From contig JAUKUA010000004.1 of assembly GCA_030549175.1 (NCBI GenBank), positions 682,001-746,000 of the forward strand: DNA of 64,000 bases, read 5' to 3'. How positions within the stretch are numbered: position 1 is the first letter of the stretch; each line of letters starts with the position of its first letter. This document shows positions 53,297-55,072 of the stretch, one piece after another. Made by a program: the position numbers and the translations under genes. Origin of the DNA: Lasiosphaeris hirsuta (Eukaryota; Ascomycota; Sordariomycetes; Sordariales; Lasiosphaeriaceae). A model generated the notes under the pieces. The model was not told where the DNA came from and searched no databases. It saw only the letters and a list, made by a program, of their open reading frames with translations.

Positions 53297-55072
53297 CTAT
53301 CCCCCTTCAATAACGTTTAAAACCGCCCTACTATCCCAAAATGCATCTCTCCTTGGGTACTGTTCCAACAACGCCACCGCCTCCCCGCGCACCTGAGGAT
53401 CAAGACACCTTGACGCAACCGTAAATAGCGCCAATACAGGCCCGTGATCCATGGTAAAAACCTCGGCGCAGCCAGCCGGCTTTGGCTGGTTTGCGAGGAG
53501 GATGGCCGCGAGACGGACAATCTCCTTGAACCGCGGCGTCATGGCATGGAGCAAGTCGTATTCGGCCTCGCCGGCGTTCGCCACGCACAGGCTAACCCAA
53601 GATGAGTGGTACTGCAGGAGAAGAGAAGTGCACTGGAAGTAGCGAGTTGGGTCTGCGATTTTCGTGGCGATCGACGATGTGTATAAGGGGTAAAAAGAAA
53701 CACTCCACTGTTTCATCTTGTCAAGGTCTTGACCCGTGGTGAGTGCTGGGTCTATGGGGAACGATCCGCCGCATGATGCAGCATTGGGTGCCTGCTTTTC
53801 CACAAGCCCTCGTAATGCCAAACGCTGTACCAAGTCCCACCACCTTCGAGCTTCGGCAATGTCGGCGAAGAAGCTAGGAACCGCGCGGCGACAGAAGATC
53901 GGGGCCTGCGGTGTTTGATTTACCAACCCCGTAGACCAAGAAAGGAATTCCAAACGTTGAAAGACTTGCAGGATTTCGTCTTCGAGGAAGCATTGGGGTC
54001 GAGGAGCCTCGGGTATGTCTGTGGGCGCTGGATGGCCTGGTGGCTTTGTGCTGGTGCACATGAACTGTTCGACAATCATCAAGCCGTGGTTTATGTGGTT
54101 AATGGCGGCTTCGCAGCTGTCGTGGAGGGCCTCGAAGCATGCGAACATGATGCAAGCAATCACGGCAACGCGAAGGGTCAGCTGAGACCCGAGGTCTTGT
54201 TGGAGACGCACCAGGCGCAACGCATGTCCGTAGTATGTCAAGGCACGATCATAGTGCGGGTTGCCTTCCAGAGGTGGTGCTGGCAACTCTGGTAGGGTGC
54301 TGGGGGCCAGCGCACTCGCGAGGGCACCGACAGCCATAGCTGCGTACCGGATAGCTGGTTCTGTACGCCCGAGTTCTGGTATCGTTTGTGTAAAGAGATT
54401 AGTCTGGAACCAACCACCGCCCATATTGTCGGCAAGGGTTAGCCAGTTGCCAAGGTAGGTGGTTTCCCATTGCAACTCTGTGAGACCGCCGTTACATTCT
54501 AGTCCCGGCACCGATTCGGGAGAACCAGTGCTTGGCGGTGGTGTTGCTGATTCGTCTGTTTCCGACTGAGAGGATGTTGGCGATTTCGACCGCTCCCTTT
54601 TCGCGCCTGGCACATCTGAATTGCCATATCCGTCGCAGTTACCCTGCCATTTCAGACAGCGTTGGCACGCTGGCTTTGCCTCGTCGCACTTGACGTGACG
54701 TCGTCTGTCCGGCATGCATGTTAGGACGGGTCGAGGTAATATACGGCGGTGGCCTGGAGGGTAGGGGGGAGTTGGAACTCACTTGCCTGCGGAGCGCATT
54801 CATTAGTACATGCACAAGCACAACACTATGCATTCTGCTGGTTGCTTACAGGTGATACAGCCAGAGCGGACTTTGGGAACGCTTGCTCGCGTCGCACGGG
54901 GACGATGCTGGAGAGTGAAGACGATTGTGTTTGGGCCCGACCTCCCATCTCTGCATCTACATCAGCTTTGCTACCAAGTAACTACCGTGGGGATATCGAC
55001 TGACCTTCCTGATACTTTCGGCATGAGTGTAGCTGTCCTCCACGAGGACGAATCCGGCTTGGGCCATGACAT
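53297..55072 (-). CDS. Zn2Cys6 transcription regulator with a 4-nt microexon
   Basis: Fungal binuclear-zinc transcription factor. The main exon 54704-53297 encodes RRHVKCDEAKPACQRCLKWQ and the following ~460 residues, including a fungal middle-homology-type helical region (IACIMFACFEALHDSCEAA; RLEFLSWSTGLV). The upstream exon ends at 54850 with VRSGCIT plus one base. Only a 4-nt exon (54786-54783, GCAA), with a TACTAATG branch and CGCAG acceptor before it and GTGAGT after it, completes CX2CX6CX6CX2CX6C in frame. The first exon is less sure: the frame has a TGA at about 55012, so another intron is needed; a start near 55067-55072 spliced by a GTCAGT donor is possible. Targets unknown. Confidence 0.78.

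Follow-up and report, generated by a model that had tools for sequence, protein, structure and literature searches.

In Lasiosphaeris hirsuta, two introns with only four coding bases between them appear to interrupt the sequence encoding the DNA-binding finger of a Zn2Cys6 transcription factor, which raises the question of whether these bases form an exon of their own or whether a simpler splicing event could rebuild the finger. The window analyzed here, by which we mean the whole stretch of 64,000 nt, corresponds to positions 682001-746000 on contig C9 of the 44.4-Mb assembly G000. Splice sites, reading frame, shuffled sequences and traces in orthologue proteins together make a 4-nt coding exon well supported, and we consider it very probable that the four bases GCAA (54786-54783) form a constitutively included coding microexon, flanked by short GT-AG introns of the ordinary type.

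Exon-intron layout and the finger

The spliced model, on the minus strand like all its parts and starting at 55072, encodes 526 residues identical throughout to the public protein P0001 (hypothetical protein B0H67DRAFT_220594, Lasiosphaeris hirsuta). Exon 1 (55005..55072) carries the start codon ATG, and the model built from it equals P0001. It is followed by a first intron of 54 nt (54951..55004, GTCAGT..GATGCAG) and by exon 2 (54850..54950), which encodes a leader common to many orthologue proteins, HRPRATRASVPKVRSGCITC, and the first cysteine pair except for the last two bases of its second member (Cys2), the 3' end of the exon reading ..GGC TGT ATC ACC T at 54850. The intron upstream of the microexon (54787..54849) starts with GTAAGC, contains the branch site TACTAATG at 54808-54801 and ends with CGCAG. 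The microexon itself (54783..54786) provides the last two bases of Cys2 and the first two of the following lysine, and the intron downstream of it (54705..54782) has a GTGAGT donor, a CCTAAC branch site and a GACAG acceptor. The last exon (53297..54704), which begins with A CGA CGT at 54704, encodes the remaining zinc cluster and the rest of the protein up to the stop TAG. Introns of 63 and 78 nt thus separate GCAA from ACC T on one side and from A CGA on the other, and in both of them the branch adenine lies 16 nt from the acceptor. As a 4-nt internal exon between two spliceosomal introns, GCAA falls, by sequence alone, within the definition of a microexon (about 30 nt or less).

Removal of the introns gives the finger CITCKRRHVKCDEAKPACQRCLKWQGNC with the exact spacing CX2CX6CX6CX2CX6C, and the product is P0001. 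The first-pass annotation was therefore right that GCAA completes the motif, and it had also correctly described the branch site and CGCAG acceptor before the four bases and the GTGAGT donor after them. Its guess that current gene models begin at the downstream ATG at 54715 was mistaken, since P0001 begins at 55072 and carries the whole finger. The PF00172 match in P0001 reached 36.6 bits against a cut-off of 21, with no second family at E 0.001, while the orthologue P0004 matched PF11951 (22.3 bits against 21). Another Zn2Cys6 gene, L010 (G000:C9:747297-747377), lies about 11 kb away on the same strand; it has one 46-nt intron, at a position common to the downstream intron of the window gene.

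Single introns, GC donors and chance

From at least 129 Zn_clus matches in the L. hirsuta genome, we chose by eye 37 loci where the profile match broke off early, and enumerated at all of them the single-intron joins from a GT or GC donor to an AG over 40-259 nt. For the window gene (L046), no GT-AG join in this range rebuilt the finger. Eight of the 37 loci (L010, L011, L012, L018, L019, L020, L021, L027) have one GT-AG intron two bases past the second Cys codon, which matches the downstream intron of the window gene in both position and phase. Nine loci had no GT-AG single-intron solution: six had no solution of any kind (L015, L022, L023, L028, L037, L041), and for L031, L033 and L046 a GC-AG intron was the sole one. 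A strict microexon solver (exons of 1-12 nt) found a solution in 2 of the 37 loci, L046 and L028, and a looser one (exons up to 25 nt, three introns) solved four, L015, L026, L028 and L046. L026 can also be solved with one plain intron, and L028 has a second solution from the looser solver, with a different 3-nt exon, while the microexon model was the sole solution of both solvers for the window gene. L022, L023, L037 and L041 were not solved even with exons up to 25 nt and three introns.

The GC-AG solution is a rival that the first-pass annotation had not considered. A single 141-nt intron (54845-54705) would extend exon 2 to ACC TGT AA and join it to A CGA, the GCAA and the GTGAGT being then coincidental. 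This model yields the same 526-residue protein, so that P0001 cannot separate it from the microexon model; the transcripts would differ by one base, TGT or TGC at the second cysteine codon. GC-AG introns also seem to be present in this gene class, as L031 (G000:C7:509033) and L033 (G000:C12:2695567) were solved by GC-AG alone, with the donors AAG|GCACGA and AAG|GCAAGA. However, on a donor/acceptor matrix trained on a small set of 19 solved introns from these loci, these two donors scored 3.71 and 3.89 and the one of the window gene, TAA|GCAACC, only -2.08; it lacks the flanking G and the G at +5 that both others keep. A GT donor scoring 5.05, that of the upstream intron, overlaps it 4 nt upstream, and the splice signals on both sides of GCAA (acceptor, branch site and donor) would be left without explanation. 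We thus regard the single GC-AG intron as very unlikely. With the same matrix, whose training range was 4.25 to 11.26 for donors and 1.38 to 9.45 for acceptors, the GT donor of the downstream intron scored 10.71, and the acceptor of the upstream intron was low (1.98).

The microexon model also fared well against chance. We shuffled the intervening sequence by dinucleotides, keeping the outer six bases fixed at each end, and looked for exons of at most 12 nt with GTRNGN donors and YAG acceptors. A motif-restoring microexon appeared in 2 of 3000 shuffles of the window gene, and in 0 of 3000 when CTRAY branch sites were required in both introns, which places its microexon beyond chance. The corresponding numbers for L028 were 30 and 1 of 3000.

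Introns in the 37 loci cluster at Cys2-Lys, where they interrupt the sequence after T (L046), after TG (L028 and L015) or after the whole codon (L013 and L014), with a further position two bases after the codon that is occupied in the 8 single-intron genes, L046 and L028. The most likely reading of the window case is an obligatory microexon at this intron hotspot. Such an exon would have arisen since two adjacent positions in this intron-rich stretch both hold introns, the downstream one being common to other Zn2Cys6 genes. Given the likeness of GTAA to GCAA, the upstream intron might conceivably have come from a local duplication. Rebuilding the finger at L015 (G000:C12:3574409-3574495) takes two short exons, 13 and 10 nt long, and the intron after TG matches the upstream intron of L028.

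Relatives and a 3-nt counterpart

We then turned to 102 proteins related to P0001, whose junction traces were read by back-translation of the protein models, so that a motif fit below means compatibility and not orthologue DNA. The anchor of exon 3 was readable in 63 of them: 42 were complete (including distant homologues whose gene structure need not match), 11 had R before the anchor, as expected from reading back through AG|A or AG|G, 2 had GK, 1 had W and 7 were of other types; the remaining 39 lacked the anchor. Three Colletotrichum models, P0045 and P0046 (the two GK cases) and P0056, fit YAG|GCAA immediately ahead of the junction with exon 3, and P0046 is also compatible with a GTRAGT donor following T| and with a TACTAAY branch site in a 72-nt intron. 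P0024 (Coniochaeta) and P0029 (Thozetella) fit a frame-shifting join of exon 3 to an exon 2 that ends in T|, with nothing in between. In P0010, P0011, P0044 and P0078, an E replaces K at the junction and may reflect models using a GT 4 nt inside the donor.

Other relatives could be built differently. Only 23 residues separate Cys2 from exon 3 in P0003, which leaves room for CTNAY but for no CTRAY, so its species may have a single intron at this place; for P0003, P0018 and P0042, one or two introns are not clearly legible from the protein. P0016, encoded on a contig of 16.6 kb, continues through the region without a break, and its gene probably lacks the introns. Other proteins from the same source, P0021 for one, run back into the intron, and the gene caller of that source therefore seems not to splice. 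A search with the exon-2 read-through peptide recovered one protein, P0102, which joined the other 101 in the set and ends in GCLTCK, an ending that fits one or two introns alike. P0001 had no match in viral contigs, and the P0004 query against genome contigs gave 12 pattern matches and 0 relatives.

The second Zn2Cys6 microexon gene of the genome, L028 (G000:C9:3491916-3492011), is moc3-like, and its corresponding codons contain an exon of 3 nt, CAA: ACC TG | GTATGT..64 nt..GACAG | CAA | GTAAGT..151 nt..CCCAG | A ATC. It shares with the window gene the place in the finger and the position of the downstream intron, but its exon is one of 3 nt (TG|CAA|A) and its family is not sister to that of the window gene in the tree described below. 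The public model of L028, P0104, is labelled partial; its 334 residues lack the finger. The expectation that such exons would be missed by most gene predictors thus applied to L028 and to some relatives of the window gene, but not to the window gene itself, for which the public model is complete.

Of 339 relatives of L028 that were found, the 120 listed were counted; the species named among them span Sordariales, Coniochaetales, Xylariales, Glomerellales and Microascales. The anchor was present in 74 and absent in 46. Among the 74, 23 models were complete, 17 had Trp, with exon 3 following C[IL]TW, 10 ended in SK, 17 ended in R and 7 were of other types. TG joined to G ATC gives TGG, that is Trp for Cys-Lys, the signature of a skipped exon, while SK corresponds to AG|C AA|G (Ser-Lys), and all 10 SK models fit YAG|CAA by back-translation. 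P0138 retains the whole upstream intron of 99 nt and fits, again by back-translation, TG|GTAYGT, YAG|CAA and a single CTRAY at a distance of 13 nt from the acceptor. CITW or CLTW was found in place of CITCK in P0110, P0125, P0143, P0174, P0183, P0186, P0191, P0192, P0194, P0197, P0202, P0205, P0206, P0210, P0214, P0221 and P0222. These public fungal proteins probably stem from a skipped 3-nt exon, either as a systematic annotation error or as a real isoform. In the window-gene set, P0014 (CVTW|RRHVKC) carries the signature of a 3-nt type. Since Trp replaces Cys-Lys in 17 of the 74 readable models (of 120 listed), databases hold fingers that seem broken and are probably intact.

A tree built from 30 proteins grouped each of the two microexon families together (100/99 and 98/93) without making them sisters, the deep forks being weak (35/83). 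The microexon labels on this tree cover whole families, with a DNA basis of one gene per family. The tree is compatible both with two gains and with a shared origin of the microexons, in which one gain was followed by losses.

Skipping, possible regulation and known systems

The first-pass annotation had stated that a direct join of 54850 to 54704 breaks the frame; skipping GCAA indeed leads to a stop at codon 74. Retention of intron 1 around the microexon leads to a stop at codon 72, and retention of intron 2 to a stop at codon 59. Inclusion of GCAA would be obligatory, because each of these events ends the protein early. The two introns would be excised one after another, by intron definition, because a 4-nt exon is too small to hold both sets of splicing factors at once.

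Skipping or intron retention could nevertheless serve as a regulated switch, giving a finger-less or dead product in some conditions. The in-frame ATG at 54715 could begin a protein of 472 residues that lacks the first two cysteines, and a precedent exists in another Zn2Cys6 gene, Xlr2 of Trichoderma virens, for which PMC11121469 describes a 20-nt microexon within the finger of a PF04082 protein, encoding PCRRCE with its two cysteines. According to the same paper, this exon is included without glucose, RNA-seq shows glucose-dependent expression, and the exon is missing from most public Trichoderma gene models listed there. Against a switch in the window gene stand the three early stops, and where the ORFs of relatives extend backwards into the intron preceding exon 3, the residues are dissimilar, so no conserved alternative start is apparent. 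A switch is compatible with the microexon reading, as both need the exon, and we consider it unlikely. Even less credible is a mis-spliced or dying gene whose product functions without ever making the finger: the finger is absent from some relatives' public models, but orthologues with an overall identity of about 45-52% conserve both the leader and the finger, and P0001 is complete. We consider this extremely improbable.

On a broader view, microexons of 3 and 4 nt at the second zinc ligand would be widely conserved among the Zn2Cys6 regulators of Sordariomycetes and would act, as a set, as a splicing switch, some of the CITW models perhaps being real isoforms; we give it a slim chance. If it were true, skipping in members of the 3-nt family whose next exon starts with G would keep the frame, replace Cys-Lys by Trp and leave an otherwise whole protein with a dead finger. 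In L028 of L. hirsuta, the next exon begins with A, so skipping CAA would give a stop.

A microexon within a Zn2Cys6 motif is already known in kind (PMC11121469), and the window gene resembles Xlr2 in having one within the finger coding sequence of an ascomycete. Unlike the 20-nt PCRRCE exon, that of the window gene is GCAA at Cys2-Lys, belongs to another protein family and is known from sequence alone. Exons of 3 nt, two of which are mentioned, also occur in the duplicated lipS genes of another filamentous ascomycete, Dactylellina haptotyla, in a passage of PMC5639578 that concerns a different gene with more than 10 introns and not a DNA-binding motif. Stwintrons (nested spliceosomal twin introns) likewise combine two short introns at one place that require consecutive removal. 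We rejected this reading for the window gene, as neither intron splits the donor, branch site or acceptor of the other and four coding bases lie between two complete introns. The main text of PMC9024468 contains no mention of microexons (micro-exon, mini-exon), Zn2Cys6, zinc or transcription factor, and 3- or 4-nt microexons at Cys2 of a Zn2Cys6 finger were not found in print in our searches of the open-licence literature, which showed nothing closer either.

A few bases thus determine whether a regulator gets its DNA-binding finger, and automatic annotation often loses them. The two genes provide a simple search rule for more such exons and two natural test cases for how the fungal spliceosome handles exons of 3 and 4 nt. 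A pattern search of the genome returned 9 sites, all within known loci: 7 of the 8 single-intron genes, L028 and the window gene.
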